Virus record (IMG/VR): IMGVR_UViG_3300027969_000473
Location: 1 to 21,272 of that record
DNA length: 21,272 nt
Source of the DNA: a virus
Direction: 5' to 3' (one strand)
A model generated the notes under the pieces. That model was not told where the DNA came from, searched no databases, and saw only the letters and a list, made by a program, of their open reading frames with translations. The translations under genes and the position numbers were made by a program. How positions within the stretch are numbered: the stretch's first letter is position 1; the number at the start of each line of letters is the position of its first letter. Below are positions 10,258 to 21,272 of this stretch, one piece after another.

Positions 10258-10262
10258 TTTGA

Positions 10263-10708: not shown

Positions 10709-10737
10709 ATGATAACACAGATTGGCATTATTGTCAA
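10709..10737 (-). promoter_or_regulatory. Sigma70-type promoter, leadered
   Basis: TTGACA at 10737-10732, a 17-nt spacer and TATCAT at 10714-10709. It is one of two members of the promoter set lacking the WTAAATGG spacer motif. The gene served starts at 10649, after a leader of ~50 nt with a Shine-Dalgarno. Confidence 0.78.
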
Positions 10738-10995: not shown

Positions 10996-10996
10996 A

Positions 10997-11422: not shown

Positions 11423-11456
11423 TTGTAAACTCCTGTAATTAACTGATTAAGACTCT

Positions 11457-11485
11457 ATTATATACCCAAAACCATTTAATGTCAA
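11457..11485 (-). promoter_or_regulatory. Sigma70-type promoter of the repeat family, leadered
   Basis: Perfect TTGACA (11485-11480), 17-nt spacer beginning TTAAATGG, perfect TATAAT (11462-11457). The leader contains GAGTCTTAATCAGTTAA and a Shine-Dalgarno. About 49 bp including the leader are nearly identical to the promoter at 12494-12522 (two mismatches by eye). Confidence 0.92.
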
Positions 11486-11486
11486 C

Positions 11487-11717
11487 CTAAACTTCCACTT
11501 TCTTATTACGATAATTAACAAAGGACACATACTCTACTACACCCAGTACGTCCCTTATTTTCTCGCCTAGCTCAGACTCCACATACCCTAGGTCGTCACA
11601 GTACCACTTTCCGTTACCATTCTCTACGCACTTTAGCACGTCCTCTACCGATCCGAATACACCCACTAGATCCGATCCCTCGTAATCTACAAATTCTATT
11701 AACGAATACACTTTCAT
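11487..11717 (-). CDS. Small acidic hypothetical protein, 76 aa
   Basis: Start chosen at ATG 11717, with AGGTG ~9 nt upstream; an in-frame GTG at 11726 overlaps that Shine-Dalgarno and is less likely. The protein is Val-rich and acidic (MKVYSLIEFVDYEGSDLVGV, GSVEDVLKCVENGNG, WYCDDLGYVE), probably a small alpha/beta domain. No family recognised. It forms a one-gene cassette: own promoter upstream, and the stop TAG lies 1 nt before the -35 box of the next promoter. Confidence 0.72.
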   Translation of the reverse strand: MKVYSLIEFVDYEGSDLVGVFGSVEDVLKCVENGNGKWYCDDLGYVESELGEKIRDVLGVVEYVSFVNYRNKKVEV

Positions 11718-11751
11718 TTTCTTCACCTGTTGTTTAACTGTTTAAGTCTCT

Positions 11752-11780
11752 ATTATAGACCCAAATCCATTTAATGTCAA
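11752..11780 (-). promoter_or_regulatory. Sigma70-type promoter of the repeat family, leadered
   Basis: TTGACA (11780-11775), 17-nt spacer starting TTAAATGGATTTGGG, TATAAT (11757-11752). The leader (AGAGACTTAAACAGTTAAA) is a diverged copy of the leaders at 11457 and 12494. It drives the 76-aa gene. Confidence 0.92.
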
Positions 11781-11789
11781 CCGTCAGGA

Positions 11790-11960
11790 TCAAGAATTTA
11801 CTGTATTGAACGGGCTAAAATCCTCATATTCCTGATCATATTCTAGTACATCATAGACAAAGTGTACTGGAATTCCCAGTCGCACAGAGATAGAAACCGG
11901 GTTATAACCCTCGTCCAGCATGTCACGGATGCTTAGATCCAGGTCAGCCATTTTGCTCAT
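11790..11960 (-). CDS. Small putative helix-turn-helix protein, 56 aa
   Basis: This small gene starts at an ATG that overlaps the stop of the upstream membrane protein in an ATGA (11960-11957), and ends at TGA 11792-11790. The sequence begins MSKMADLDLSIRDMLDEGYN and continues PVSISVRLGIPVHFVYDVLE. The segment GYNPVSISVRLGIPVHFVYD has the spacing and hydrophobic pattern of a minimal helix-turn-helix, with LGIP at the turn. An acidic tail (YDQEYEDF) follows. It may be a small DNA-binding regulator, but an acidic tail and small size leave protein-protein interaction possible. An alternative start is the Met at codon 4. Confidence 0.75.
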   Translation of the reverse strand: MSKMADLDLSIRDMLDEGYNPVSISVRLGIPVHFVYDVLEYDQEYEDFSPFNTVNS

Positions 11961-12172
11961 TTTGAATTACTCACACTAGTTTTAAACAAGATTCCAGACA
12001 ATGTAGAAATACCCCAAGCCTGAACCCAAGACACTTCGTTGATACCGACAACGGCTCCAACCAGTGCGTTATTCCAAAGCCACATCACGGGCCAACTTAA
12101 TAGAAAACTAAGAAATACAATACCAGCAATACCTACGATTGCGGCACCAATAACAACAAAAACTTTATCCAT
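11957..12172 (-). CDS. Small two-helix membrane protein, 71 aa
   Basis: A hydrophobic N-terminal segment (VFVVIGAAIVGIAGIVFLSF) runs into a second hydrophobic stretch around LLSWPVMWLWNNALVGAVVG, and a weaker one around WVQAWGISTLSGILF. It lacks a cleavable signal and should be an inner-membrane protein. ATG 12172 has a GGAGT Shine-Dalgarno. It lies between the 92-aa gene and the 56-aa HTH-like gene in one transcription unit. Function unknown; such proteins are frequent in early regions of large phages. Confidence 0.78.
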   Translation of the reverse strand: MDKVFVVIGAAIVGIAGIVFLSFLLSWPVMWLWNNALVGAVVGINEVSWVQAWGISTLSGILFKTSVSNSK

Positions 12173-12182
12173 GATTTACTCC

Positions 12183-12461
12183 TTAAGCGGCAGACAACAT
12201 ATTAGCCGGAACACGCCATGTATTCAACGGACCAGTCTTAACGATAACAAATTTACGATTGATTTTTTGTACATCGCCTGTGATTTCCATACCAGTGCGG
12301 CTGTTAGTGAATTTCACTTTAGTACCCACTGTCAGGGTATACTTGTTTTTCTGTGCGATCTGGGCACGAGCAAACTTGACGGCATCATTGATGCTAGTCA
12401 GTTGGTCATTGGTAAAATTACCAGAGATAATAGCACGGTTGATTTCAGAAATGTCAGTCAT
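12183..12461 (-). CDS. Phage protein with SH3/KOW-like C-terminal domain, 92 aa
   Basis: The N-terminal ~38 residues form a helical segment (ISGNFTNDQLTSINDAVKFA, then RAQIAQKN). The C-terminal half has the pattern of a small SH3-like barrel (YTLTVGTKVKFTNSRTGMEI, GDVQKINRKFVIVKT, WRVPANML), with the glycine-bounded strand-loop-strand reminiscent of KOW-type folds. The family recurs in aquatic phages (from memory); nucleic-acid or protein binding is possible but not shown. Shine-Dalgarno AAGGAG precedes ATG 12461. First gene after the promoter at 12494-12522. Confidence 0.8.
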   Translation of the reverse strand: MTDISEINRAIISGNFTNDQLTSINDAVKFARAQIAQKNKYTLTVGTKVKFTNSRTGMEITGDVQKINRKFVIVKTGPLNTWRVPANMLSAA

Positions 12462-12493
12462 AAAAACTCCTTTAGTTAACTGATTAAGACTCT

Positions 12494-12522
12494 ATTATAT
12501 ACCCAAATCCATTTAATGTCAA
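12494..12522 (-). promoter_or_regulatory. Sigma70-type promoter of the repeat family, leadered
   Basis: TTGACA (12522-12517), spacer of 17 nt starting TTAAATGGATTTGGG, TATAAT (12499-12494). The leader GAGTCTTAATCAGTTAA is the same as at 11457. Serves a three-gene unit (92 aa, 71 aa membrane, 56 aa HTH-like). Confidence 0.92.
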
Positions 12523-12523
12523 A

Positions 12524-12754
12524 TTATTTTTTGAGGTCTTGCTGAATCTTGTCCAGAGTTTCCTGAGATTCCAAACGGGATAACAAGAGGGTATAGCCTA
12601 AATACAACATACCGCCTAGTAGTCCAAAGCCAACAGCATCCACAAGGGTCTCTCTGGACACGTAGGTTACGACCGAATCAACCAATAGTATTGATGCTAT
12701 GCTAGCTATAACTAGGGCTATCAATTGGAGAAGTGCTTTAATTTTAAGAGACAT
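12524..12754 (-). CDS. Small membrane protein with two hydrophobic segments, 76 aa
   Basis: Hydrophobic segments at residues ~8-28 (LQLIALVIASIASILLVDSV) and ~41-58 (VGFGLLGGMLYLGYTLLL), followed by a charged helical tail (RLESQETLDKIQQDLKK), suggest a hairpin in the inner membrane with a cytoplasmic tail. ATG 12754 with GGAAA upstream. One-gene cassette between two repeat-family promoters; its stop TAA is 1 nt from the next -35 box. Function unknown; holin-like size alone is not evidence, since no lysis genes are nearby. Confidence 0.78.
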   Translation of the reverse strand: MSLKIKALLQLIALVIASIASILLVDSVVTYVSRETLVDAVGFGLLGGMLYLGYTLLLSRLESQETLDKIQQDLKK

Positions 12755-12783
12755 TTTGATTTCCTTTTTACGTTAATATACGA

Positions 12784-12812
12784 ATTATACACCCAAGACC
12801 ATTTAACGTCAA
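12784..12812 (-). promoter_or_regulatory. Sigma70-type promoter of the repeat family, leadered
   Basis: TTGACG (12812-12807), 17-nt spacer starting TTAAATGG, TATAAT (12789-12784). The TGA stop of the upstream gene (12811-12809) is inside the -35 box. The leader of ~23 nt holds AAAGGAAA before the ATG at 12754. Confidence 0.88.
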
Positions 12813-13012
12813 GTTTTGGGTGCGTATTTTTGTGTCAATTCTTGGACTTCCTCTACTGTGACCAGTCCATTACTAATCAATCTTTTCTGTTCCTGATTGA
12901 TTGCTTGCCATTCAGCCATGCCCCTTTTCCAAACGGAATAGTCATCACTATAGTCAAAAGACCAATCATGGGACTTTAATAGTTTTTCCAAAATCACGAG
13001 GGTTTCGTTCAT
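12809..13012 (-). CDS. Phage hypothetical protein, 67 aa
   Basis: Begins MNETLVILEKLLKSHDWSFD and continues with YSDDYSVWKRGMAEW and NGLVTVEEVQELTQKYAP. It looks like a small helical soluble protein; the pairing of an acidic DYSDDYSVW stretch with a C-terminal helix is common among short phage proteins I have seen without function. The start at 13012 has AGGAG 8 nt upstream, located in the 3' end of the 50-aa gene whose stop is 1 nt away, so the pair is translationally coupled. Confidence 0.78.
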   Translation of the reverse strand: MNETLVILEKLLKSHDWSFDYSDDYSVWKRGMAEWQAINQEQKRLISNGLVTVEEVQELTQKYAPKT

Positions 13013-13013
13013 A

Positions 13014-13166
13014 TCAAAACTCCTGTTTGGAATGCTTGGGTTTACGTTTGAACAGTACTTTAGACTGCACAATTTTTGGCTTGAACGGAGTGTTGTTTTT
13101 AAACAACACAAGGTGAGCCCGATGTTTGGGCTGTTCAATTGTGAAAGATAGAATTTGCTTTTTCAT
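13014..13166 (-). CDS. Small basic protein, 50 aa, possibly ArfA-like
   Basis: Start taken as ATG 13166, 7 nt after the -10 box, with no Shine-Dalgarno, so the message should be leaderless. The protein is strongly basic (MKKQILSFTIEQPKHRAHLV, then TPFKPKIVQSKVLFKRKPKH). The tail pattern PFxxxIVxxKxxxxRKxKH recalls the core of the ribosome-rescue factor ArfA ([20 protein letters not shown] in the host protein), but the N-terminus differs and the match is short. It may equally be an unrelated basic phage protein binding RNA or the ribosome. Confidence 0.68.
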   Translation of the reverse strand: MKKQILSFTIEQPKHRAHLVLFKNNTPFKPKIVQSKVLFKRKPKHSKQEF

Positions 13167-13173
13167 AACCCGT

Positions 13174-13202
13174 AGTATAGCACACCATCCATTTATTGTC
13201 AA
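13174..13202 (-). promoter_or_regulatory. Sigma70-type promoter of the repeat family, leaderless
   Basis: TTGACA (13202-13197), 17-nt spacer starting ATAAATGG, TATACT (13179-13174). Only 7 nt separate the -10 box from the ATG at 13166. The TGA stop of the HNH gene (13201-13199) is inside the -35 box. Confidence 0.88.
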
Positions 13203-13588
13203 CCCCAATCAAATAATTCAGTATCTGCTAATTTAGTTCTTCTATCTGGTCTAGGTTGCAAATGATGTCCGTTTGTAATTGTAGCATGAGTATGGCACAT
13301 TTTACAAAGAACTTCAATGTTTGATTCATCTCTATTACCATTATTGCCATCAATATGATTAATGTCTAATGTTGCTGGATGCAATATTGTCCCGCAAACA
13401 CACGGGAATCCATAGTGACCATCACTATTTGCACATCCTTTATTCATTTTCCATTTATCAACTTCACCTTTTCTATGTGTTCGGTGAGCCGAACACACTT
13501 GTTTACTGGTATTTTTTGTTTTACTATGTTGCCCGACTGTATTATTACAGTTAGGGTAAGAGCATTTTAAGAAAGTTAATGTTGCCAT
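13199..13588 (-). CDS. HNH endonuclease with zinc-binding cysteines, 129 aa
   Basis: An HNH core is clear: Asn77-His78 in LDINHIDGNNGNRD, the central Asn90 in ESNIEVLC, and the C-terminal CxxCHTH at 95-101 (LCKMCHTHATITNGHH). Additional Cys pairs at C9/C14, C32 and C63/C65 (CVCG) suggest a structural zinc ribbon at the N-terminus. Free-standing HNH nucleases in phages act as homing endonucleases or in recombination and packaging; with no terminase nearby, a homing type is favoured. ATG 13588 has an AAGGTAA Shine-Dalgarno. It lies 11 nt after the stop of the WYL_2-like gene; base composition looks more AT-rich than its neighbours, consistent with mobility. Confidence 0.88.
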   Translation of the reverse strand: MATLTFLKCSYPNCNNTVGQHSKTKNTSKQVCSAHRTHRKGEVDKWKMNKGCANSDGHYGFPCVCGTILHPATLDINHIDGNNGNRDESNIEVLCKMCHTHATITNGHHLQPRPDRRTKLADTELFDWG

Positions 13589-13599
13589 TTAATTTACCT

Positions 13600-13929
13600 T
13601 TATATACTAAATTCCACCTTAGTGACATTTTTTGTCGTAAAACTACGCCATTCTTTTTTTTCTAAATCAAATACTCGAATACTAGTGGTTGACTCCTTCC
13701 TAAGAAGTTTACCTTCTGCTAAGGGTTTTACTTCAACTACAGGTAAGAGTTCTGGTTTCAATGTGCAATTCATTACACGCACAGACCCGTCTACCTTAGT
13801 GAAAGTTACTGTAACACTCTCATTAATCTTGAGCATTCCAGTCAACCAATTTGTAAACTTATTCCATTCCTTATCTCCCCAATCTTTTGTTGGACTATAA
13901 GGTTTCTCTAGTACATCAATCGTTTCCAT
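13600..13929 (-). CDS. WYL_2 / Sm-like SH3 beta-barrel protein (DUF2693-like), 109 aa
   Basis: After a helical N-terminus (DWGDKEWNKFTNWLTGML) comes a beta-rich domain with motifs TVTFTKVDGSVRVMNCTL, PELLP and SIRVFDLEKKEWRSF followed by TKNVTKVEF. This is the pattern of the phage WYL_2 (formerly DUF2693) Sm-like SH3-barrel family. Members are small and widespread in T4-like phages; the biochemical role is not established, though nucleic-acid binding is often supposed. The start overlaps the stop of the AbrB-like gene by 14 nt, suggesting coupled expression. Confidence 0.82.
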   Translation of the reverse strand: METIDVLEKPYSPTKDWGDKEWNKFTNWLTGMLKINESVTVTFTKVDGSVRVMNCTLKPELLPVVEVKPLAEGKLLRKESTTSIRVFDLEKKEWRSFTTKNVTKVEFSI

Positions 13930-14458
13930 TTTGTTCTTCCCATGTAGTAAAAAAGTTTTTCATTTTAAGTTCTTTTTCCCACTCATCGGCGTAATCATTG
14001 TCTGCATCACACAAAGCAAGTGCTTCTTTCTTAGTCACTACACGATGGCTAACAATCTGTTCACCAAGATGTTCCTGACTAAACTCTTTTGCTTCACCCA
14101 TCGTTACAGTATCCAATGCCCATTTAACCTTATTGTTACCGTAGTTATCAATACCAACTGGTACTTCAACCATGTAACGAGTACGGAATGTACTGACAGC
14201 TTCAACTAACACCCATTGCTTCTCCTCGGATGCTTTCTTACTAATACTGTAAGATCCGTCTTTATTATCTTTCCATTTCAACACATCACCAATTTCAAAT
14301 CCTTGTGATTTCATTAAATCATCCGGCAATGGTAGAATCATATCACCTGTCTCTGGATCCTCTTGTAATGTTGCAATCCAAGAGTTATCACCTGTCTTGG
14401 CCCACAGGGGTTCAAGTTTACTTGGTTCAATTGCACTTTGAAGTTTTTTCTTTCTCAT
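13916..14458 (-). CDS. AbrB-like swapped-hairpin domain fused to a conserved phage domain, 180 aa
   Basis: Residues ~38-75 (GDMILPLPDDLMKSQGFEIG, then DVLKWKDNKDGSYSISK) match the AbrB/MazE/SpoVT pattern, with I-L-P-L-P in the first strand and GFEIGDVL in the connecting turn. Residues ~82-165 (WVLVEAVSTFRTRYMVEVP, AKEFSQEHLGEQIVSHRV, CDADNDYADEWEKE) form a second domain recalled from other phage proteins but without known function. AbrB-type folds usually bind DNA as dimers, so a transcription regulator is plausible; the unusual fusion means that is an inference. AAGGAAA Shine-Dalgarno precedes ATG 14458, 9 nt after the membrane-protein stop. Confidence 0.8.
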   Translation of the reverse strand: MRKKKLQSAIEPSKLEPLWAKTGDNSWIATLQEDPETGDMILPLPDDLMKSQGFEIGDVLKWKDNKDGSYSISKKASEEKQWVLVEAVSTFRTRYMVEVPVGIDNYGNNKVKWALDTVTMGEAKEFSQEHLGEQIVSHRVVTKKEALALCDADNDYADEWEKELKMKNFFTTWEEQNGND

Positions 14459-14467
14459 AATATTTCC

Positions 14468-14752
14468 TTAATTAATTAACATACGAACGAGACCAACACA
14501 ATCAATAGTTACTAGCAATGCATAGTTAGCAATCATGCCAACAGATCGGCGGCTATAACTAGCCCACCCATACATAATGCATTGAGTAATAAAAATAGGA
14601 TACAAAATAAGTAGAGGCGGGTTCGGTACTGTAAGCGCCATTGTGACCGCACATCCGATACTAAGCATCCAAGCCGTAACTTCCACGACAAAACGAATAG
14701 GGTTTGCTGAATAGTCATTTTTAACGTAGTTGGCTATTTGTAAAAAATTCAT
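14468..14752 (-). CDS. Multi-span membrane protein, 94 aa
   Basis: Start chosen at ATG 14752, which lies 5 nt after the -10 box and has no Shine-Dalgarno, so initiation is probably leaderless. Three hydrophobic segments are visible: residues ~24-43 (FVVEVTAWMLSIGCAVTMAL), ~45-62 (PPLLILYPIFITQCIMYGW) and ~73-90 (MIANYALLVTIDCVGLVRML). A similar small integral membrane protein occurs in several marine phages (from memory). Function unknown. Heads an operon with the AbrB-like, WYL_2-like and HNH genes. Confidence 0.8.
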   Translation of the reverse strand: MNFLQIANYVKNDYSANPIRFVVEVTAWMLSIGCAVTMALTVPNPPLLILYPIFITQCIMYGWASYSRRSVGMIANYALLVTIDCVGLVRMLIN

Positions 14753-14757
14753 TACGT

Positions 14758-14786
14758 ATGATAACACACATTCGAAAGAATGTCAA
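14758..14786 (-). promoter_or_regulatory. Sigma70-type promoter, leaderless, with hairpin in spacer
   Basis: TTGACA (14786-14781), 17-nt spacer, TATCAT (14763-14758); the ATG at 14752 is 5 nt downstream of the -10 box. It lacks the WTAAATGG motif; instead a 6-bp inverted repeat (ACATTC / GAATGT, 14768-14783) spans the -35 edge and spacer and could be an operator. The upstream gene's stop TAA abuts the -35 box. Confidence 0.78.
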
Positions 14787-15143
14787 TTAGTTTGGAACTA
14801 ATGCTTGTTTATAGCAATTACAGTATGGATCAAGTATATATTGAAAATGATATCCTATAGGAGGATAAACTTGCTGTTGAACATACACCGGCTGTTGTTG
14901 TACTACAACAGGTTCCGGTTGTCTATTTTGATTTGCAATAATTATTCCAGCAATACCACCAATAACTAATGGTGCTACCCAATTGTTGTTATCACGATAA
15001 ACTACAGTTGGTCCTTGATGTGAATGATGTCCTCGAGGTCCGCATGCTGGATGACGATGATCAATTCCCCAACGACAATCTATATCAGCAAATGCCACTG
15101 TGCTAACTGCTAATAGTGCTATAATCAAAGTAAACTTTTTCAT
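14787..15143 (-). CDS. Exported protein with signal peptide, 118 aa
   Basis: A textbook Sec signal peptide is present: MKKF, hydrophobic core TLIIALLAVSTV, and cleavage site AFA|D after residue 19. The mature part is rich in His, Gln and Val (CRWGIDHRHPACGPRGHHSH), with a Gly/Ile hydrophobic segment (WVAPLVIGGIAGIIIANQN) and a Gln/Pro/Val-rich stretch before a C-terminal CNCYK region. No lipobox is seen. It should reach the periplasm or envelope, possibly spanning the membrane once more. A role in superinfection exclusion or envelope modification is conceivable but not supported by motif. Strong AGGAG Shine-Dalgarno 8 nt before ATG 15143. Last gene of the long operon. Confidence 0.85.
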   Translation of the reverse strand: MKKFTLIIALLAVSTVAFADIDCRWGIDHRHPACGPRGHHSHQGPTVVYRDNNNWVAPLVIGGIAGIIIANQNRQPEPVVVQQQPVYVQQQVYPPIGYHFQYILDPYCNCYKQALVPN

Positions 15144-15172
15144 ACAATAATCTCCTGTATATATATAACGTG

Positions 15173-15697
15173 TTAGGCTACTGTTTTGTTGACAATCAAT
15201 TCACGCAAAATTTCTTCAATCATTTTATTCAATGTGATATCACGATTATGTGCTTCCATTGCTAATTTTAGCATAGTATCACTATCTAAATCAACGGGCA
15301 CTACTACACGAGTATCAAAAATTTGACCATCAAACATCTTAGATGCCTTATCAATAAAATCTTCTTCTGTTTCCAAATCAACCCACTTTACATCATCCCA
15401 TGCTTGGTCAGCATCAACAAGCCGATCTTTTGCCTCTGTATCATGTGACACACGATAGTCAGGGTCAATGTAACGATAGGGCTTTGGTTCAGGTTCATCT
15501 GTATCCCTAACACGAAACGCCGGGCTTACATTGACTTCATACACCTTTTGAGTTACTGTATCAAAGATTACATAGCCGTGTGCATAGTTGCTAGTATAGT
15601 CAATAGACCATGTATTAGAGCCATAGCAGTCCCAACCATAATCACTTCCACCAGTTATTCGGTGTTGAAATGTGTTGTTAATTTCACTTAGTTGCAT
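15173..15697 (-). CDS. Phage protein with ribbon-helix-helix-like C-terminus, 174 aa
   Basis: Residues 1-~110 are a Tyr/Asp-rich beta-looking region (GGSDYGWDCYGSNTWSIDY, YVIFDTVTQKVYEVNV). The C-terminal ~45 residues match a ribbon-helix-helix layout: strand TRVVVPVDLD, helix SDTMLKLAMEAHNRD, turn, helix TLNKMIEEILRELI. In the Arc/MetJ/CopG class such a fold binds DNA as a dimer through the strand. If so, this would be a regulator encoded inside the operon; the pattern is convincing but the strand lacks several of the usual basic residues. Start overlaps the upstream stop by 14 nt and has an AAGGAAAAG Shine-Dalgarno. Confidence 0.75.
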   Translation of the reverse strand: MQLSEINNTFQHRITGGSDYGWDCYGSNTWSIDYTSNYAHGYVIFDTVTQKVYEVNVSPAFRVRDTDEPEPKPYRYIDPDYRVSHDTEAKDRLVDADQAWDDVKWVDLETEEDFIDKASKMFDGQIFDTRVVVPVDLDSDTMLKLAMEAHNRDITLNKMIEEILRELIVNKTVA

Positions 15698-15893
15698 TTT
15701 CTTTTCCTTTGTAATGTTCTAGAATAGGTTCAATATCGTTATTATATATCTGTTCCATCGTTTTGTAAAGCATTTCGGCATCCTTCTTTGTCATGCCACT
15801 TGTCCAAGATGGTTCATTGTCTAGTTTGAGTAACCCAAAATCATGTCTATAAGTATAGCACATGCTGGTAATAATTTCTTCTTTTGTTTTCAT
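15684..15893 (-). CDS. Small phage hypothetical protein, 69 aa
   Basis: Start chosen at ATG 15893, whose ATGA overlaps the stop of the WGR-like gene; an in-frame GTG 18 nt upstream is inside that gene. Small helical protein (MKTKEEIITSMCYTYRHDFG, then MTKKDAEMLYKTMEQIYNND), charged and soluble. Function unknown. Member of the tightly overlapped operon read from the promoter at 17991. Confidence 0.75.
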   Translation of the reverse strand: MKTKEEIITSMCYTYRHDFGLLKLDNEPSWTSGMTKKDAEMLYKTMEQIYNNDIEPILEHYKGKENATK

Positions 15894-16186
15894 AGTTTTA
15901 ATAGTGCCCACATTGTGGTCTTTTCTAAATCACTTAGAAATTCTGGATAAACTTGTTTCAGTTCATAATCCATAAGTGTTTTATACCCTTTTTCTTTTTT
16001 TGATGTAACCAATTTATCTAAGTCCCAACCTTCACGATCCATTTTGGTTTGAAGTTTATGTCCACGGCGTCCCCAGAAGATTAATACTTTAGGACGCATC
16101 TTGGTTCTATCTTCCATATAGATAGCACCCCAAACTTTGTCTGAACCATCTTTATTGTTCCAACCAATAAATTTATAGTCAATCAT
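15890..16186 (-). CDS. WGR-domain-like protein, 98 aa
   Basis: The sequence follows the WGR domain layout: GSDKVWGAIYMED (residues 14-26), the diagnostic Trp-Gly-Arg at 38-40 in IFWGRRGHKLQTKMD, then a spacer and TSKKEKGYKT (61-70), which matches the usual KxKKGY ending. WGR domains are known from PARP-type ADP-ribosyltransferases, where they contact DNA ends, and from small bacterial proteins of unknown role. Here the domain stands alone, with only a short C-terminal helix (YPEFLSDLEKTTMWALLK). It may bind nucleic acid. Starts on an ATGA overlap with the 121-aa gene upstream. Confidence 0.78.
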   Translation of the reverse strand: MIDYKFIGWNNKDGSDKVWGAIYMEDRTKMRPKVLIFWGRRGHKLQTKMDREGWDLDKLVTSKKEKGYKTLMDYELKQVYPEFLSDLEKTTMWALLKL

Positions 16187-16548
16187 TCTTCTACCTCTAC
16201 TGGTTGATCAGGAATGTTTTCTGTATCACCATCTTTAGCAAAAACAAATCCCAAATCTAACATCTTTTTTTCTTCAGCATGAGTACAGCGAGGACGGTAT
16301 ATAAACAGTCGCAAAGTAAGGTTATCTTTGCTATAGTAAACCCTATACCTAACTTGTTCCTCATTCAGGATCTTAGCAAGTTCCTGAAATGTAAAACTTT
16401 CAGGCCAATCTTCTTTTACACTAGACCTAGTCTTTTCATAATAGAAATCTTGCATACGATGTATGTTGGAACTTTTGCCCCAAAATAAGTTTTGCTCACA
16501 CCATGCAATCTTTCGGTCAAGCATTTCAATAGTGATTTCGTTACTCAT
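16183..16548 (-). CDS. Phage hypothetical protein, 121 aa
   Basis: Contains an N-terminal helix (ITIEMLDRKIAWCEQNLFWG), a central region with alternating hydrophobics (FTFQELAKILNEEQVRYRVY, then NLTLRLFIYRPRC) and an acidic tail (DGDTENIPDQPVEVEE). No family recognised. The start overlaps the previous stop in ATGA, preceded by GGAG within the upstream gene's last codons. The tail VEVEE resembles the GVEE ends of its operon neighbours. Confidence 0.75.
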   Translation of the reverse strand: MSNEITIEMLDRKIAWCEQNLFWGKSSNIHRMQDFYYEKTRSSVKEDWPESFTFQELAKILNEEQVRYRVYYSKDNLTLRLFIYRPRCTHAEEKKMLDLGFVFAKDGDTENIPDQPVEVEE

Positions 16549-16811
16549 TCTTCAACTCCGAAATGTTCTTTAATCAGTGTGCCGCAGTCATCAGCAATAT
16601 TGTGCCCTGACATACCATGCTCTAGCATTCCCCATCCATGTGTGTGGCAAACACCAGCACATTCTTTCACAATCAACTCGGCGAACTTTTCTATTTGCTC
16701 TAATCCTTCTTGTTCGGTGTCGGTTAGGGCATGGATAGTACGATAGTAATGTAACAATAGTGCTGGCCCAAGTTTAGCCTCGACAGCAAGTTCTTTAATT
16801 CGTTCGTTCAT
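16545..16811 (-). CDS. NER[I/M]KEL-type phage protein, paralog 3, 88 aa
   Basis: Starts MNERIKELAVEAKLG at ATG 16811, which overlaps the upstream stop in ATGA. It shares MNERIKELA, EKFAELIVKECAGV, and IKEHFGVEE with the 80-aa protein at 17283 and more weakly with the 87-aa protein at 16808. This modular small protein (MNERIKEL-variable loop-FAELIVRECA-variable-IKEHFGVE) is widespread in phages; function unknown. The variable middle here is GPALLLHYYRTIHALTDTEQ. The conserved helical ends suggest a common fold, with the middle as the specific part. Confidence 0.82.
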   Translation of the reverse strand: MNERIKELAVEAKLGPALLLHYYRTIHALTDTEQEGLEQIEKFAELIVKECAGVCHTHGWGMLEHGMSGHNIADDCGTLIKEHFGVEE

Positions 16812-17071
16812 TCCGTTTTTCCTCTTCTTCTGATTGCTCTTTGCAATGCACAAAAATCGTCATGTGCTTTACGGGTTGTCTCCGCGTGTTTGTTGCTATG
16901 GCAATGAATAGACCACCACTTTCGTGCAAATTCTTCAACCTCCCTAGCACACTCCTCTATAATCATCTCGGCGAACTTTTCTTGGTCAAACCCAAACTCT
17001 AGTAACTCACCATTTACCCCGTAAGTTTCAATTCGGCACTGTTCAGCAAGTTTTTCAATTTGTTCGTTCAT
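16808..17071 (-). CDS. NER[I/M]KEL-type phage protein, paralog 2, 87 aa
   Basis: Begins MNEQIEKLAEQCRIETYGVN and keeps the central FDQEKFAEMIIEECAREVEEF motif. Unlike its paralogs it lacks the IKEHFGVEE end and instead has a basic C-terminus (CALQRAIRRRGKTE), so it may have diverged or recombined at the 3' end. Both ends overlap neighbouring genes in ATGA. The presence of several Cys and His (HCHSNKH) in the second half is notable but no metal-site pattern is certain. Confidence 0.8.
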   Translation of the reverse strand: MNEQIEKLAEQCRIETYGVNGELLEFGFDQEKFAEMIIEECAREVEEFARKWWSIHCHSNKHAETTRKAHDDFCALQRAIRRRGKTE

Positions 17072-17286
17072 TCTTCAACTCCATATTCTGCCTGAAGGTC
17101 ATACAATGCTTTACGGACCTTTACTGCAACTAGTTTATACTTGTCAGGATGTATAGGATGATAGGTATATTCTTGACCATTCCAAGTTTTACTACCCATC
17201 AACAATTTGTCAACCTCTGCTAGAATTTGAAAGCGAGGATCAGCCCACATCTTGATTAGACTGTCAGGTACGATTGGTGTATTCAT
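17068..17286 (-). CDS. Phage hypothetical protein, 72 aa
   Basis: Sequence begins MNTPIVPDSLIKMWADPRFQ and continues ILAEVDKLLMGSKTWNGQEY, HPIHPDKYKLVAVKVRKALY, ending in YGVEE. It is a soluble, mostly helical protein; no family recognised. It is wedged between two of the NER[I/M]KEL paralogs with ATGA overlaps at both ends and shares their GVEE ending, which also holds the GGAG Shine-Dalgarno for the next gene. Confidence 0.75.
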   Translation of the reverse strand: MNTPIVPDSLIKMWADPRFQILAEVDKLLMGSKTWNGQEYTYHPIHPDKYKLVAVKVRKALYDLQAEYGVEE

Positions 17287-17525
17287 TCTTCAACTCCGAA
17301 ATGTTTCAGGATATTCTGCTCACAATGAACAGGAATATATGTTACTGAATCTTGAACCCAATGTCTTTCTGGAGTATGCGGTAGAGTTTTAGCAACCAAC
17401 GCACATTCTCGAACAATCAGTTCGGCGAAAGTTTCCATCAAGTATTCTTGATATCTACTTTTATCTTCAAACGTGTTGGCCCAATATTCAGCAACCTTGG
17501 CAAGTTCTTTAATTCGTTCGTTCAT
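17283..17525 (-). CDS. NER[I/M]KEL-type phage protein, paralog 1, 80 aa
   Basis: Starts MNERIKELAKVAEYWANTFE; contains ETFAELIVRECALVAKTLPH and ends QNILKHFGVEE. It is the paralog most similar to the 88-aa protein at 16545 at both ends. The family is common in tailed phages without known role. ATG 17525 overlaps the stop of the 41-aa gene in ATGA; its Shine-Dalgarno (AAGGA) lies in that gene. Confidence 0.82.
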   Translation of the reverse strand: MNERIKELAKVAEYWANTFEDKSRYQEYLMETFAELIVRECALVAKTLPHTPERHWVQDSVTYIPVHCEQNILKHFGVEE

Positions 17526-17647
17526 TTTTTTTCTTCCTTCTTAGGCGCAGGCTTTGCAGGCTGTGCGTTCTTACGCTCACGCTTCAATTCCTTTGCTAGC
17601 CTATTAAAGCCGCGCTTTTCTGATAAGGGCTTCCATGCTTTAGTCAT
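17522..17647 (-). CDS. Very small Lys-rich protein, 41 aa
   Basis: A short gene: ATG 17647-17645, stop TGA 17524-17522. The product begins MTKAWKPLSEKRGFNRLAKE, continues LKRERKNAQPAKP and ends APKKEEKK, so it is strongly basic with a Pro/Ala/Lys tail. Support comes from organisation: its start overlaps the GIY-YIG stop by 8 nt and its stop overlaps the next ATG in ATGA. GGAG lies 5 nt before the start. Function unknown; nucleic-acid binding is possible from charge alone. Confidence 0.75.
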   Translation of the reverse strand: MTKAWKPLSEKRGFNRLAKELKRERKNAQPAKPAPKKEEKK

Positions 17648-17984
17648 TACTAACTCCAAATGTGTTCAATGCTGGACGCAATGTGTTAATCAACTCTGTC
17701 TCACGCTCATGTGCAGGACGCTTGCCACGAACAACTTCAATAACACCGAATATAAAACGCTCGGCACCACGTTCACGCAATGCACAACTCAAACCCCAAT
17801 TCTTACGTTCAGTCAAGGCCCGTTGCATATGCTTTTGCATACGACGGCGTAGTGTGCGAAACACATTACCCTTGAATGACAACGCAGTAAGACCGATATA
17901 AGTTTCCTGTGTAACTACATCTTGAATGTAGTACAGGACCTGATTACGATCTGTTCTGCGCTTGCGGACGTTTTCTGAGTTCAT
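17640..17984 (-). CDS. GIY-YIG family nuclease, 114 aa
   Basis: Core elements of a GIY-YIG domain are visible: a first strand VLYYIQD (residues 16-22, with YYI in place of GIY), the YIG triplet at 29-31 in ETYIGLT, a basic helix FRTLRRRMQKHMQRAL (42-56) bearing the catalytic Arg/His region, the metal-binding Glu in HERETELINT (92-101) and the terminal Asn107 in RPALN. No extra DNA-binding domain follows, so it is a minimal free-standing nuclease, as in phage homing or repair enzymes. ATG 17984 is 6 nt after the -10 box with no Shine-Dalgarno, implying a leaderless mRNA. It leads an operon of at least eleven genes. Confidence 0.85.
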   Translation of the reverse strand: MNSENVRKRRTDRNQVLYYIQDVVTQETYIGLTALSFKGNVFRTLRRRMQKHMQRALTERKNWGLSCALRERGAERFIFGVIEVVRGKRPAHERETELINTLRPALNTFGVSND

Positions 17985-17990
17985 AAGTGT

Positions 17991-18019
17991 ATTATATACC
18001 CTAACCCATTTAATGTCAA
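17991..18019 (-). promoter_or_regulatory. Sigma70-type promoter of the repeat family, leaderless
   Basis: TTGACA (18019-18014), 17-nt spacer starting TTAAATGG, TATAAT (17996-17991). The ATG of the GIY-YIG gene is 6 nt past the -10 box. The Toprim gene's TGA stop (18018-18016) is part of the -35 box. It should drive the whole operon down to 14787. Confidence 0.92.
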
Positions 18020-18531
18020 CCGTGGGTTTCTAGCAAGGCCGAGACGAATTCCGTGTCGCTATCCCCGAGGTCCTTATCTGTTGTAAAAACGCAACAGTCC
18101 CCGAATTCGGCCAGTCTCAGGCCAGCACTATCATTGTCACAAACTGCGACAACCCGACGATTCAGACAGGTTAACCAGTTACGCAGGTCGCTATTGGGGT
18201 TGTTAGATAGCACGGCCAACGCACTAAATCCACGCTCAGTCAACCGGGCCGCATCAAACACCCCTTCACATACAAACACAACTCCGGGGCTTAAAAAGAG
18301 ACTTTCCACGCCCCAGACAGTCTGCGTGGGCTGATTTCGGTATGTGAAATACTTACCCTCTTTGGGATTATTCTGTGGTTTTTTCTCGCCCAAGGGACGA
18401 TATTGCTGATACCCGACTAGTTGGCCGCTTAGATTCCACAGGTAGAATGTAGCAACACCCTCAACTTCATCAAGCACGGGCCTGTGAAGTTCCAAGTCTA
18501 AGTGACGAGATTTTAGGTGTTCTTTCAGCAT
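18016..18531 (-). CDS. Stand-alone Toprim-domain protein, 171 aa
   Basis: A Toprim domain fills residues ~80-150: Glu89 in VVFVCEGVFDAARL, then FSALAVLSNNPN and the Asp132/Asp134 pair in VVAVCDNDSAGLRLAEFGD. The first ~75 residues (ATFYLWNLSGQLVGYQQYRP, GKYFTYR) resemble the segment just before Toprim in phage primases. There is no zinc finger, RNA-polymerase core or helicase part, and the length is far below a full primase (300+ aa), so it may be a reduced primase module, a nuclease-type Toprim or a remnant. ATG 18531 is 6 nt past the -10 box and lacks a Shine-Dalgarno, hence leaderless. Confidence 0.83.
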   Translation of the reverse strand: MLKEHLKSRHLDLELHRPVLDEVEGVATFYLWNLSGQLVGYQQYRPLGEKKPQNNPKEGKYFTYRNQPTQTVWGVESLFLSPGVVFVCEGVFDAARLTERGFSALAVLSNNPNSDLRNWLTCLNRRVVAVCDNDSAGLRLAEFGDCCVFTTDKDLGDSDTEFVSALLETHG

Positions 18532-18537
18532 ACCTGT

Positions 18538-18566
18538 AGTATACACCCAAAACCATTTATTGTCAA
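18538..18566 (-). promoter_or_regulatory. Sigma70-type promoter of the repeat family, leaderless
   Basis: TTGACA (18566-18561), 17-nt spacer starting ATAAATGG, TATACT (18543-18538), then 6 nt to the ATG at 18531. The stop TGA of the GNAT-like gene (18565-18563) lies inside the -35 box. Confidence 0.9.
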
Positions 18567-19033
18567 CTGTTATTTTCGGGAATTTCTTTAGGAGTTTCTG
18601 TAAGATACTCATAGTTTGTGGTATCTATGTTTTCTCTGAAAACGATAGCCCCGTTTTTAAGATGGAACCTGCGGGCTAAGTTAGTCTTAGGGCTTAATGT
18701 TACAAATCTTGTAACGCTAGGATATTGTATTTGAATTCCTTTTACCGCTTGCATAAGTAACTCTGCACCTTTACCGCTTTTGTAACTCCATATAGTATAG
18801 AATATTGCGGTAGTGGGCACTTGACTAGTTTTCTTCAATCCCTCTATATCTTCAGGAACAAAGTCATGGAAGCTAACACAAACCATTGCTTCGGGTTGTT
18901 GTTCTTCATTGGTTAATGCTGCGACAACCCTGCCATCACTAACTCTAAAATCTTTAGAGATTTCAGGGCGTACAGGATCGTCTTTTATAAAACTTAATAA
19001 TGTGTGTGATAGGTCTGTGATAAATTGAAACAT
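18563..19033 (-). CDS. GNAT-like acyltransferase-fold protein, 156 aa
   Basis: The central and C-terminal parts follow a GNAT layout: strand TTAIFYTIWSY (74-84), the acetyl-CoA loop and helix KSGKGAELLMQAVKGIQ (85-101, compare QxxGxG/A), strand VTRFVTLSP, then NLARRFHLKNGAIVF (118-132), typical of the last helix and strand. The N-terminal FITDLSHTLLSFI is an extra helix. Substrate unknown; phage GNAT proteins may acetylate proteins or small molecules. No Shine-Dalgarno precedes ATG 19033; a CATAAATA box and a TATAAT lie upstream. Homology is by pattern only, and a non-catalytic member is possible. Confidence 0.68.
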   Translation of the reverse strand: MFQFITDLSHTLLSFIKDDPVRPEISKDFRVSDGRVVAALTNEEQQPEAMVCVSFHDFVPEDIEGLKKTSQVPTTAIFYTIWSYKSGKGAELLMQAVKGIQIQYPSVTRFVTLSPKTNLARRFHLKNGAIVFRENIDTTNYEYLTETPKEIPENNS

Positions 19034-19041
19034 GATAATGT

Positions 19042-19049
19042 TATTTATG
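19042..19049 (-). promoter_or_regulatory. T4-late-like promoter box (CATAAATA) with nearby TATAAT
   Basis: CATAAATA (19049-19042) ends 8 nt before the ATG of the GNAT-like gene; a TATAAT at 19060-19055 has no good -35 partner. This gene follows a terminator, so some promoter must lie in 19034-19081, and these are the only candidates I see. Confidence 0.35.
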
Positions 19050-19081
19050 CGTATATTATAAAAACATAAATTTTAGCCATA

Positions 19082-19107
19082 AAAATAGGACCCTGAGGTC
19101 CTATTTT
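19082..19107 (-). terminator. Intrinsic terminator after the phosphoesterase gene
   Basis: Perfect 11-bp stem AAAATAGGACC / GGTCCTATTTT with a 4-nt loop, followed on the minus strand by a T-run (19085-19081). It closes the transcription unit that begins at 20437; the A/T-flanked stem could also act on the plus strand. Confidence 0.9.
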
Positions 19108-19120
19108 CTTTTAGCGACTC

Positions 19121-19723
19121 TTACATCGTTGGGCCGTTACCACTTTTAAATCCAATTGACCCGCCCTCTGCCTCGATTCGTTTAATTACATTTTCAAATA
19201 AGATAGGCTTAAAGTCAGTTTGCTCAACACAAACACAATGATAACGTAAATCATTTTCATCACTGTACTTTACTTCTCCGGTTTTGGCATCAACACCATA
19301 TGCTTTCTTCACACGATTAGAATGTAAGTGACCGTGAATGTTAACTCCAAAGCGACCCAAGCTATCACTATGTAACGGGATATGACTTAAGATCATTCCG
19401 TTCATAACATGATATGCTCTTAATTCACGGAAGTACTTACTATATTCCACATCAGGGAAGATATCGTGATTGCCACGAATTAAAACCTTATCACCGTTTA
19501 AGCGAGCCATCGTTGGTAATGCTTTACGATTGATAACCACATCACCCAAGTGATATACTTTGTCTGTTGGACGAACTGTATCGTTCCAACGTTTAATCAT
19601 TTCCTCATCCATTTCATGTGGATCAGTCCATGGTCGAATCTTGGTTACTCCGTCTTTCTCTGTAAACCTACACACTCCAGCATGACCAAAGTGTGTGTCA
19701 CTAACTAAAAATACTGCTGGCAT
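19121..19723 (-). CDS. Calcineurin-like metallophosphoesterase, 200 aa
   Basis: All metal-binding motifs of the family are in order: Asp9 and His11 in LVSDTHFGH, Asp61 in VYHLGDVV, GNHD at 84-87 in LIRGNHDIF, His114 in ILSHIPLH, and GHLH at 131-134 in INIHGHLHSN-like sequence (here VNIHGHLHSN). The length is normal for small phage and bacterial phosphoesterases of this class, which cleave phosphodi- or monoesters such as cyclic nucleotides; the substrate here is unknown. I chose ATG 19723 because it has AAGGA upstream and directly precedes the first strand; longer in-frame extension would run into the 44-aa gene. The stop of that gene is 1 nt away. Confidence 0.9.
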   Translation of the reverse strand: MPAVFLVSDTHFGHAGVCRFTEKDGVTKIRPWTDPHEMDEEMIKRWNDTVRPTDKVYHLGDVVINRKALPTMARLNGDKVLIRGNHDIFPDVEYSKYFRELRAYHVMNGMILSHIPLHSDSLGRFGVNIHGHLHSNRVKKAYGVDAKTGEVKYSDENDLRYHCVCVEQTDFKPILFENVIKRIEAEGGSIGFKSGNGPTM

Positions 19724-19724
19724 A

Positions 19725-19859
19725 TTATTCCTTTTCTCTTTTAGAGATATCTCTCTTTTGTGCTTGTCTTTCAGATTTCCAAAAGACACGCTTCCAATCT
19801 TTCAAGTGCTTCCACCATTGAGGAGGACCTGTCAGATTACCTTGTTTTTTATTAGCCAT
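19725..19859 (-). CDS. Very small basic Trp-rich protein, 44 aa
   Basis: Short gene from ATG 19859 to TAA 19725. It begins MANKKQGNLTGPPQWWKHLK, continues DWKRVFWKSERQAQ and ends KRDISKREKE. It contains four Trp and is highly basic, forming one amphipathic helix. The pattern NLTGPPQWWKHL with DWKRVFWK matches a small conserved protein that I recall from many aquatic phage genomes, always near other early genes. AAGGA upstream lies at the stop of the 76-aa gene. Function unknown. Confidence 0.82.
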   Translation of the reverse strand: MANKKQGNLTGPPQWWKHLKDWKRVFWKSERQAQKRDISKREKE

Positions 19860-19863
19860 AATG

Positions 19864-20094
19864 CTAGTTCCTTTTTACTCGACCGATTCTGCTTGCCTTG
19901 TTCCAAGTGTATGCTACTCCATCAGGAGTCTTTCCGTCAACTACACTATCAACACCAAATCGTCCTACAAATTCCATTCCGTCTGAGCCACGAATAGTTA
20001 CAAACTGTCCGTACGCCTTTGCTGTTTCCATTGCACTGTTCAATGACAAACAGGTAGCGAGTGGAAACCCTTCTTTTGTTATTACTTTATACAC
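19864..20094 (-). CDS. Phage hypothetical protein, 76 aa
   Basis: Start set at GTG 20094, which shares a base with the TAG stop of the upstream gene (TAGTG); a TTG 15 nt further upstream (20109) is the alternative. The core reads YKVITKEGFPLATCLSLNSA, QFVTIRGSDGMEFVGRFGVD and PDGVAYTWNKASRIGR. This conserved pattern (FVTI, GxFGVD, PDGVxYxWxK) recurs in phage proteins I know only as hypotheticals; it looks like a compact beta-rich domain. Second gene of the unit read from 20409. Confidence 0.78.
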   Translation of the reverse strand: MYKVITKEGFPLATCLSLNSAMETAKAYGQFVTIRGSDGMEFVGRFGVDSVVDGKTPDGVAYTWNKASRIGRVKRN

Positions 20095-20402
20095 TATGCT
20101 ATCATCCAATCTATGTCATCTTCTACTTGTATACTTTCATCACCGTCGTATTCTACTACACGGAATTTTTTACCTTCTTCTATCCATTCTACTTGTAAAT
20201 TACTCATACTACCTGTATATATGCCGGGGTACTTCAATTCTACATAAGTAGCCAATTCATCATACTGTCCCTTCTCTACAAGTTTTACCATTGCAGGATC
20301 GAACAATATCTCTGGATGGTCTTGATTCCATGAGTACCATCCAGCACCAAAGCCAGGGCTGTATAGTACTGCTACTTTTCCGTTCTCACTTAATTTACGC
20401 AT
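20094..20402 (-). CDS. Conserved phage hypothetical protein, 102 aa
   Basis: Motifs VAVLYSPGFGAGWYSWNQDH, PEILFDPAMVKLVEKG and, near the end, FRVVEYDGDESI and DDIDWMIA define a very common small phage protein without known function. Two in-frame ATGs exist, at 20408 and 20402. The first abuts the -10 box and would be upstream of the transcript start, whereas the second lies 6 nt after it, exactly as in the other leaderless genes, so I use 20402. Confidence 0.85.
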   Translation of the reverse strand: MRKLSENGKVAVLYSPGFGAGWYSWNQDHPEILFDPAMVKLVEKGQYDELATYVELKYPGIYTGSMSNLQVEWIEEGKKFRVVEYDGDESIQVEDDIDWMIA

Positions 20403-20408
20403 AGACAT

Positions 20409-20437
20409 AGTATATCACCTTCTCCATTTAATGTCAA
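20409..20437 (-). promoter_or_regulatory. Sigma70-type promoter of the repeat family, leaderless
   Basis: TTGACA (20437-20432), 17-nt spacer starting TTAAATGG, TATACT (20414-20409). Drives the four-gene unit ending at the terminator 19082-19107. The spacer also holds AAGGTG, which would be a Shine-Dalgarno for the first ATG if read-through transcription occurred. Confidence 0.9.
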
Positions 20438-20445
20438 GATATGGT

Positions 20446-20467
20446 AATACCCGGCGAACCGGGTATT
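20446..20467. terminator. Hairpin terminator downstream of the vWA gene
   Basis: Nine-bp perfect stem AATACCCGG / CCGGGTATT. On the minus-strand RNA the loop is UUCG closed by a G-C region, an unusually stable tetraloop. The minus side has only a short, interrupted T-tail (ATTACC), while on the plus strand TTTTT follows. It probably ends the vWA transcript and may block antisense reading. Confidence 0.75.
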
Positions 20468-20483
20468 TTTGTTTCATCGACTG

Positions 20484-21272
20484 TTACGCCAAATCGTAGC
20501 GACTGTTCATCACAGCCTTAAGCATGATAGCTTCTGGGCTAAATGCATCTGGGTCTGCACCCAATACACTAGCAGCGATTGCTGGGCTGAATCCTGACAC
20601 AAGAGCGGTACCACCCTTGTCGAACTTAACTGGAGCGTTTCCGCTACTGTTCAAGTTCCAAAAAACTACCTTAGGCAAATCGTAACCTGCTTCGGCATAC
20701 TTACGTGCGATCATTTCCATTGCACTGTCATCATACTTAACGCAGGCGTTAAATTGCATGTCGCTGAAAATCATCAGTGTCTCAGGCATTTCTGCTTGTG
20801 ATACCTTGTTCTTAACAGCAGTGTCAAGGATTTGACTGAACGCACCATGTAGGTTTGTACTCATACCCCAATCAGAACTGACCATTTGGTCAATCTTTTC
20901 GTTGATGGAACCCTTAAGGTTCAACAACTTTGGCTTGTCGCTGAAAGTCAAAAAGCAGTCCTTGAACTTACCCTTGTTCTTATCAGCAAAATACAATCCC
21001 AAACTAACTGCGATTTCTAGGCAAGTAGTAGAACCCTTCTTCCCTGCAATGCAGGTCATAGAGCCACTAACGTCAACTAGAGGCAACACACTTGAGTCAC
21101 CAACATAGTTAGGCAATGCATTCCATTGTGCTTCAATAGCATCCAACTCGGTCTTAGACCAACTTAATGCTGAACCGTATCCAGTGATACGACCCTTCAA
21201 CACATCGTGTGGGAAGATTGCGTTAGCATTGATCTTCACACCTGCTTCACCCTTAACCAACTTAGTGATGTA
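20484..21272 (-). CDS. DUF2828 / von Willebrand A domain protein, N-terminus cut by window edge
   Basis: The frame is open to the last base (262 residues present), so the N-terminal part lies outside. The visible part is a vWA domain with MIDAS residues: DVSGS in LPLVDVSGSMTCI, Thr in DWGMSTNLHGAF and Asp in LMIFSDMQFN. The surrounding sequence (LTFSDKPKLLNL, MPETLMIFSDMQF, EAGYDLPKVVFWNLNSSG, GTALVSGFSP) matches the DUF2828 family, known from plants, fungi, giant viruses and phages; its N-terminal half resembles the RNA-binding TROVE fold of Ro60. The role in phages is unknown; metal-dependent protein or RNA scaffolding is likely. Family members usually exceed 400 aa, so about half is missing here. 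TAA stop, then a hairpin terminator. Confidence 0.9.
   Translation of the reverse strand, partial: YITKLVKGEAGVKINANAIFPHDVLKGRITGYGSALSWSKTELDAIEAQWNALPNYVGDSSVLPLVDVSGSMTCIAGKKGSTTCLEIAVSLGLYFADKNKGKFKDCFLTFSDKPKLLNLKGSINEKIDQMVSSDWGMSTNLHGAFSQILDTAVKNKVSQAEMPETLMIFSDMQFNACVKYDDSAMEMIARKYAEAGYDLPKVVFWNLNSSGNAPVKFDKGGTALVSGFSPAIAASVLGADPDAFSPEAIMLKAVMNSRYDLA

Follow-up and report, generated by a model that had tools for sequence, protein, structure and literature searches.

The mapped leaderless mRNAs known from phages belong mostly to the repressor genes of temperate phages. The closest described cases, given here as they appear in the accessible parts of the cited papers, are cI and cro of phage PY54, whose leaderless mRNAs were mapped by rapid amplification of cDNA ends, and lambda cI, which is named as leaderless in the same paper (PMC4488713) and in another (PMC9031893). 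Cluster O mycobacteriophages have SigA-like promoters with a predicted +1 on the first codon (PMC4351075), and a paper on phage AR9 describes phage transcripts as often leaderless (PMC5312081). Among bacteria, a TANNNT motif about 6 to 7 bp before an open reading frame (ORF) is read as a sign of leaderless transcription in TA-led genes (PMC12340547), as is a -10 motif about 10 to 12 bp before the start codon in Deinococcus-Thermus (PMC3160421). Here we analyze a virus record of 21,272 bases (IMG/VR record IMGVR_UViG_3300027969_000473; "the window" means this whole stretch), in which five minus-strand genes, among them a primase-like gene and a GIY-YIG nuclease gene, each have a sigma70-type promoter ending 5 to 7 nucleotides (nt) before the ATG and are predicted to be transcribed as leaderless mRNAs.

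Like lambda cI and PY54 cI and cro, whose RNAs start at the AUG, the five window genes have a promoter directly before the gene, and their geometry is that used for calling leaderless genes in bacteria. The lambda and PY54 genes are temperate-phage switch genes, whereas here primase-like, GIY-YIG, and unassigned genes share one promoter family over many contigs. Cluster O phages have few such promoters, in hosts where leaderless genes are common, whereas the window belongs to a gene-linked two-class system. The TA-led and Deinococcus cases are cellular genes, the latter mostly without a -35 element, whereas the window promoters combine near-perfect -35 and -10 elements with a conserved block, TTAAATGG, beside the -35. 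The homing endonucleases of T4 include GIY-YIG genes, some with promoters of their own, as in the window. In the accessible part of the T4 paper, the endonuclease-specific promoters are middle or late, none of them early, and the I-Tev genes have a Shine-Dalgarno sequence (SD) hidden in a hairpin (PMC2988022); the window gene, unlike these, has a sigma70-type promoter and no SD, and we liken it to them as a GIY-YIG gene only, not as a homing enzyme. The literature searched, with subscription papers and preprints outside it, held no report of this leaderless promoter system; as far as that literature shows, what is new is that genes such as a primase-like and a GIY-YIG gene make up a conserved leaderless class, linked to the gene, within a single promoter family of environmental phages.

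The promoter scan covered positions 9000 to 21272 of the window. On the minus strand, ten promoters score 11 or 12 of 12 against TTGACA-17-TATAAT, the form of a sigma70-type phage early promoter, and their spacer is always 17 nt; an additional 11/12 site with TTTACA at 15769 lies outside this set. That the genes are early is suggested by the sigma70-like sequence. The TTAAATGG block adjoining the -35 has 15 matches at no more than three mismatches, against 4.65 expected. TTGACA-T/A-TAAATGG is exact in seven of the ten promoters, the promoter at 12812 is an eighth with one mismatch, and the promoters at 14786 and 10737 lack the block. Five of the ten end directly before the predicted leaderless genes:

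20409..20437, minus strand, promoter TTGACA-17-TATACT, 6 nt to the ATG at 20402
20094..20402, minus strand, predicted leaderless gene, 102 amino acids, no function assigned; third-position share of differences 0.53
18538..18566, minus strand, promoter TTGACA-17-TATACT, 6 nt to the ATG at 18531; its -35 supplies the TGA stop of ORF 18563-19033 upstream
18016..18531, minus strand, predicted leaderless gene, 171 amino acids, Toprim-type DNA primase (phrog_849, E 3e-42, profile positions 149-326 of 435)
17991..18019, minus strand, promoter TTGACA-17-TATAAT (12/12), 6 nt to the ATG at 17984; its -35 supplies the TGA stop of the primase gene
17640..17984, minus strand, predicted leaderless gene, 114 amino acids, GIY-YIG nuclease (PF01541, E 1.5e-5, domain match from residue 16)
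14758..14786, minus strand, promoter TTGACA-17-TATCAT, 5 nt to the ATG at 14752; begins directly past the upstream stop codon
14468..14752, minus strand, predicted leaderless gene, 94 amino acids, hydrophobic by eye, no function assigned
13174..13202, minus strand, promoter TTGACA-17-TATACT, 7 nt to the ATG at 13166; its -35 supplies the TGA stop of ORF 13199-13588 upstream
13014..13166, minus strand, predicted leaderless gene, 50 amino acids, basic, no function assigned; third-position share of differences 0.51

Searches of Pfam and PHROGs gave no function for the genes at 20402, 14752, and 13166 (the queries for the first two, and that for the gene at 11717, carried 1 to 3 extra N-terminal codons). 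The primase-like protein corresponds to the Toprim part of phrog_849 without its N-terminal part, and a split primase is possible. ORF 13199-13588, upstream of the 50-amino-acid gene, looks HNH-like by eye only.

The remaining five promoters are followed by leaders:

12784..12812, minus strand, promoter, 29 nt to the ATG at 12754, with an SD; the TGA of its -35 is the upstream stop
12494..12522, minus strand, promoter, 32 nt to the ATG at 12461, SD AAAGGAG; leadered in 20 of 21 distinct relatives
11752..11780, minus strand, promoter, 34 nt to the ATG at 11717, SD AGGTGA; a single relative
11457..11485, minus strand, promoter, 34 nt to the ATG at 11422, SD AGGAG; leadered in 17 of 17 distinct relatives
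10709..10737, minus strand, promoter, 59 nt to the ATG at 10649, SD AAAGGA, leader with a hairpin and a U run; leadered in 16 of 17 distinct relatives

A sequence-only reading had proposed this split, with the last base of the -10 box 5, 6, 6, 6, and 7 nt from the ATGs at 14752, 17984, 18531, 20402, and 13166, no usable SD at any of the five, and leaders of 20 to 60 nt with an SD at the other five promoters. The distances are as claimed; the anti-SD energy of the leaderless class is near random, which bears out the lack of a usable SD, and the contrasting leaders measure 29, 32, 34, 34, and 59 nt, each with an SD. The distances and the comparative data below confirm that two promoter-to-ATG geometries, with and without an SD, occur within one phage. 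They also make leaderless transcription, which had been predicted from the window, the best explanation, with the class tied to the gene and not to the individual phage.

We took as leaderless a -10 element 5 to 7 nt upstream of the start codon, a position found at all five genes. The chance rate was taken from ATGs opening at least 50 codons 8 to 14 nt past the -10 in related contigs; it gives 0.07 such ATGs at 5 to 7 nt per ten promoters and a probability of about 2e-8 for five or more. In pieces of six related contigs with 467 promoter-like sites scoring at least 10 of 12, ATGs opening at least 50 codons numbered 23 at 6 nt, 4 at 5 nt, and 6 at 7 nt, against about 1.1 per position at 8 to 14 nt, and a second peak of 102 lay at 29 to 34 nt. 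The reversed sequences of these contigs held 230 promoter-like sites and zero ATGs at 5 to 7 nt. A looser leaderless pattern had 77 matches at 5 to 7 nt in 18 contigs versus 20 at the shifted distance of 10 to 12 nt (reversed-pattern controls, 22 and 9). A chance origin of the 5- to 7-nt geometry is ruled out by this shifted-distance comparison and by the 0.07 ATGs expected where five are seen.

We also searched viral contigs for the promoter motif, irrespective of its distance to an ATG, in a scan that returned at least 120 stretches; the counts in this paragraph are among the matches listed. Of 202 unique promoters, 169 lay at 20 to 60 nt, 24 at 6 to 7 nt, and 9 at neither. Counted by the first ATG opening an ORF of at least 40 codons, 23 fell at 6 to 7 nt, 1 at 8 to 20 nt, and 166 at 21 to 36 nt; the remaining 12 comprised 2 at 0 nt, 4 beyond 57 nt, and 6 without such an ATG. 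The 24 leaderless promoters come from 7 protein families, of which one is mixed; another 58 families have leadered promoters only. The mixed family (one leaderless and two leadered members) is joined by a loose BLAST link, and its leadered members were not inspected. A set of 291 unique promoters, made up of the listed loci, the primase relatives, and the window under a slightly looser pattern, had the first ATG at 6 nt in 43 cases, 7 nt in 7, 0 nt in 5, and 11 nt in 1, with 217 at 21 to 36 nt, 8 further away, and 10 without one. Four of the five cases at 0 nt have an in-frame ATG at 6 nt.

Gene by gene, we counted distinct upstream regions and left out the window's own copy; placement failed for two primase matches, one GIY-YIG match, and one 20402 match. 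The GIY-YIG gene is leaderless in 46 of 46 relatives, 45 of them at exactly 6 nt and 1 at 7. Leaderless geometry was found in 35 of the 42 primase relatives (32 at 6 nt, 3 at 7); another, L141, has 17 nt by way of a duplicated TATACTATGGGT, and six have no promoter. Relatives of the 50-amino-acid gene lie at 6 to 9 nt in 23 of 27 cases (17 at 7, 2 at 6, 4 at 9). A promoter precedes 6 of the 18 relatives of the 20402 gene, all at 6 nt, and among the 34 relatives of the 14752 gene, 6 are leaderless (all at 5 nt) and 1 has another distance. The leadered genes with enough relatives (12754, 12461, 11422, and 10649) are never leaderless; with window copies counted, their promoter stands at 29 to 64 nt in 61 of 68 cases and their anti-SD energy is at or below -5 in 65 of 68. 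All five leaderless ORFs show an excess of third-position differences (0.48 to 0.60). The five genes combine a conserved geometry, no SD, and an ORF that is coding, and on the comparative sequence data the best reading is that the leaderless mode remains tied to each gene throughout the phage family.

Two observations concern the leaders of the other class. Between the promoter and the SD of the 10649 gene (10684-10701, minus strand), a hairpin GUGCUGA-loop-UCAGUAC is followed by AUUUUUAAA (z -2.6). By eye it is kept with changed letters in many relatives, and it looks terminator- or attenuator-like. The leaders at 12493-12462, 11751-11718, and 11456-11423 (minus strand) contain a similar AGAGTCTTAATCAGTTAA...AGG, also present in relatives, which could be a shared RNA element.

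The promoter sequences point to a transcription start at the ATG itself. In the GIY-YIG set, counting the A of the ATG as +1 places the -10 box between -12 and -7 and the -35 box between -35 and -30, which are the canonical sigma70 positions. The discriminators of the five genes vary in sequence and are nearly constant in length. Bacterial RNA polymerase prefers to start on a purine (+1) that follows a pyrimidine (-1). Among 63 distinct gene-discriminator pairs of the five genes (window included), the -1 base is T in 43, C in 18, and A in 2; a pyrimidine in 61 of the 63 is what an RNA start at the A of the ATG would favor. Before 124 distinct leadered ATG contexts, the corresponding base is A in 72, T in 36, C in 9, and G in 7. 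We put the probability that the five genes produce real leaderless mRNAs from sigma70-type promoters, in a mode that belongs to the gene, at roughly 0.85. A sigma70-type RNA polymerase would start at, or no more than 1 to 2 bases from, the A of the ATG; the resulting mRNAs would carry neither a leader nor an SD; and the ribosome would recognize the 5'-terminal AUG itself and start on it. That the RNAs begin there and are translated from those ends we infer by analogy with lambda cI and PY54 cI and cro. The RNAs might instead have very short leaders of 1 to 5 nt or mixed starts and be translated by 30S or 70S scanning, not being truly leaderless. RNA polymerase is known to shift its start by a base or two, and the 50-amino-acid gene varies from 6 to 9 nt among relatives, but the commonest distance is exactly 6, and with a pyrimidine at -1 the A of the ATG is a well-placed purine, and we consider short leaders rather unlikely.

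The start codons and the SD measurements agree with leaderless initiation. In the survey of at least 120 loci, among the matches listed, the mean anti-SD energy was -2.6 kcal/mol for leaderless starts, -1.95 for random sequence, and -5.85 for leadered starts, and values at or below -5 occurred in 17, 15, and 85 percent, respectively. An ATG opens every distinct relative of the five genes; this invariance is partly built in, because the script looked for ATG in preference to GTG or TTG. Among the listed matches, a TTG with a long frame 4 to 8 nt past the -10 occurs at 2 of 202 promoters, both leadered, and a GTG at none. Folding is weak over the opening 40 nt of the ORFs in both classes (mean -1.7 for leaderless and -2.5 for leadered ORFs, against -5.8 and -5.9 inside genes), so weak structure does not mark off the leaderless class. 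Gene finders often misplace phage starts, and these proteins might begin further downstream with an SD; this is hardly credible here, where protein similarity in relatives begins no more than a few codons from the ATG, the GIY-YIG domain match runs already from residue 16, and no other in-frame ATG, GTG, or TTG occurs within the first 64 nt listed of the gene at 17984.

Several observations limit the case for leaderless, gene-linked initiation at these genes or weigh against it. At a loose scan threshold, the window holds 38 promoter-like sites versus 36.6 in shuffles, which is not above chance, so the argument rests on the ten strong promoters and their relatives. These relatives are akin by descent, and the ortholog counts are not independent events; related contigs G001 and G002 share an identical seven pattern matches and are therefore not independent. 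No scored promoter was found in 12 of 18 relatives of the 20402 gene and 27 of 34 relatives of the 14752 gene, so these two genes are not leaderless everywhere. Four relatives of the 50-amino-acid gene have leaders of 28 to 40 nt, and four more lie at 9 nt. The upstream anti-SD energy is at or below -5 in 11 of the 35 leaderless primase relatives, which would give a weak SD on a read-through RNA; this SD-like sequence sits on the side predicted to be untranscribed. Lastly, in a scan of cultivated phages (below), six matches were compared with the annotation (three in slurp01, two in GAP32, and one in BUCT-ZZ01) and none were gene starts; they come from 38 matches, of which the other 32 were not compared.

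Some of these features would also fit genes translated mainly from longer read-through RNAs, by stop-start coupling or a weak SD, with the near promoter secondary. Where the private promoter is missing, coupling to the upstream gene is suggested because the start overlaps or abuts the upstream stop in 4 of 6 primase relatives, 12 of 12 relatives of the 20402 gene, and 16 of 27 relatives of the 14752 gene. In the four primase relatives, the start touches or overlaps a long frame upstream; of the other two, one has a stop 9 nt before the start, and for one none was found. For the 20402 gene, the stop lies between 2 nt upstream of the start and 4 nt inside the gene, and six of the 12 have SD-like energy. 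For the 14752 gene, the overlap is 1 to 8 nt; no upstream stop was recovered in 7 further relatives, and in 4 it is 22 to 51 nt away, three of these, by eye, with a hexamer resembling a -10 box 6 nt upstream of the ATG. The SD-like energy upstream of 11 of the 35 primase genes, and an upstream stop only 31 nt from the ATG in 18 of 46 GIY-YIG and 11 of 35 leaderless primase relatives, add to the case for read-through. On a read-through RNA, the sequence AAGGTGA would lie 6 nt upstream of 20408, a second in-frame ATG of the 20402 gene directly 3' of the -10 that a normal transcription start would exclude from the RNA; it is kept in 2 of the 6 relatives having the promoter. Read-through leaves unexplained why the distance is so strictly 6 nt, why a pyrimidine stands at -1, and why an SD is absent exactly where the promoter is near-perfect. 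In addition, a strong 9-bp hairpin at 20446-20467 (z -4.0) separates the gene at 20484 from the 20402 promoter. We therefore hold it very unlikely that read-through RNAs are the main templates. By eye, the stem letters of this hairpin are altered on both sides in some relatives.

Leaderless mRNAs at these genes are compatible with an origin in genome compaction, in which promoter cassettes were squeezed between genes, the leader was dispensable, and its loss has no regulatory meaning. In 4 of the 10 window promoters (18566, 18019, 13202, and 12812), the upstream ORF ends on the TGA inside TTGACA, three more (14786, 12522, and 11485) have their first base no more than 2 bases from an upstream stop, and the 31-nt stop-to-ATG distance recurs in relatives. 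However, the promoter at 12812 shares its upstream stop and is leadered, and GIY-YIG cases with the upstream stop 40 to 75 nt away retain the identical geometry. As the main reason for leaderlessness, we rate compaction at somewhat less than even odds.

A regulatory role of the leaderless class is possible, and part of the pattern is accounted for just as well by compaction. Leaderless RNAs can bind 70S ribosomes directly, high levels of initiation factor 3 (IF3) inhibit some of them, and initiator tRNA favors them; in T7-infected cells, initiation factors and S1 are phosphorylated, and the authors of the review, in its accessible part, knew of no study of leaderless translation there (PMC9031893). 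A separate initiation route could be favored or spared when the phage alters the ribosome, for example with a bS21 of its own, or when SD-dependent initiation is shut down. A gene for ribosomal protein bS21 is present in 5 of 18 related contigs (L274-L277 and G003:C1:50828-50980) and was not found in the closely related G001 and G002, and no IF3 gene was found in any of the 18; all of these records may be fragments. That the primase-like, GIY-YIG, and other genes form a regulatory class kept without an SD for such a route seems to us quite unlikely.

The source is likely a large phage of a bacterium, resembling the T4 superfamily, because related contig G003 encodes a DNA polymerase closest to those of jumbo phages (Phosso, 48 percent; Atu_ph07, 46; RaK2, 44), two of the related contigs measure 364 and 349 kb, and G002 carries 34 tRNA genes in about 14 kb (L221 1452-15867). 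The window primase has its nearest relative among phage records in Synechococcus phage B23 (54.7 percent), and all 391 records are below 60 percent. The window has no near match among 50,697 phage records, a comparison from which very near records may be left out, and no match in Rfam. ORF 20484-21272 (minus strand) is a relative of an RNA-binding protein/DUF2828 protein of jumbo phage GAP32, and the G002 gene in the matching place matches phrog_850, RNA-binding protein. ORF 2148-6695 (plus strand) encodes 1515 amino acids with many repeats of the types NAQPNITSVGTLTSL and VFTGNGNGLSSLVGANVTG, perhaps a tail or adhesion protein.

We scanned 14 records of cultivated phages with the leaderless pattern. 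Methylophilales phage Melnitz has 7 matches (reversed control, 0), three of them on annotated starts of coding sequences: 8419 (MazG-like), 26014 (DNA primase), and 38547. A further annotated start, 66627, lies 8 nt from its -10, and the overall distance distribution of Melnitz has a small peak only (7 at 7 nt, four of these off annotated starts). The Melnitz paper predicts 31 early promoters by software, and in its accessible part the word "leaderless" occurs once, in a reference title (PMC9004378). Synechococcus phage B23 has 1 match and Sinorhizobium phage phiM12 has 2, neither compared with annotated starts; Limnohabitans phage DC31, Variovorax phage V45v66, and Agrobacterium phage Atu_ph04 have zero. 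The eight other, mostly jumbo, phages (RaK2, slurp01, XaC1, Phosso, Atu_ph07, GAP32, Vibrio phage 2.275, and Synechococcus phage BUCT-ZZ01) have 38 matches versus 14 reversed. Melnitz alone of the 14 gave matches on annotated gene starts, and none of the 14 was shown to have the same promoter family, with most matches outside Melnitz not compared with annotation. We rejected a derivation of the promoters from a host: the pattern scan of genome contigs gave 26 stretches, many from Clostridia and other firmicutes, and 6 of the 26 open at least 100 codons. Inspected by eye, with no alignment made, these stretches held no recognizable relative of the five genes, and they name no host.

In these phages, it depends on the gene whether the shared promoter type leads into a predicted leaderless or an SD-led start, and some genes are predicted to be leaderless in one phage and to have a stop-start overlap in another. 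Together these would amount to a natural experiment on why leaderless initiation is retained, and the geometry offers a working rule for placing the gene starts of such phages correctly.

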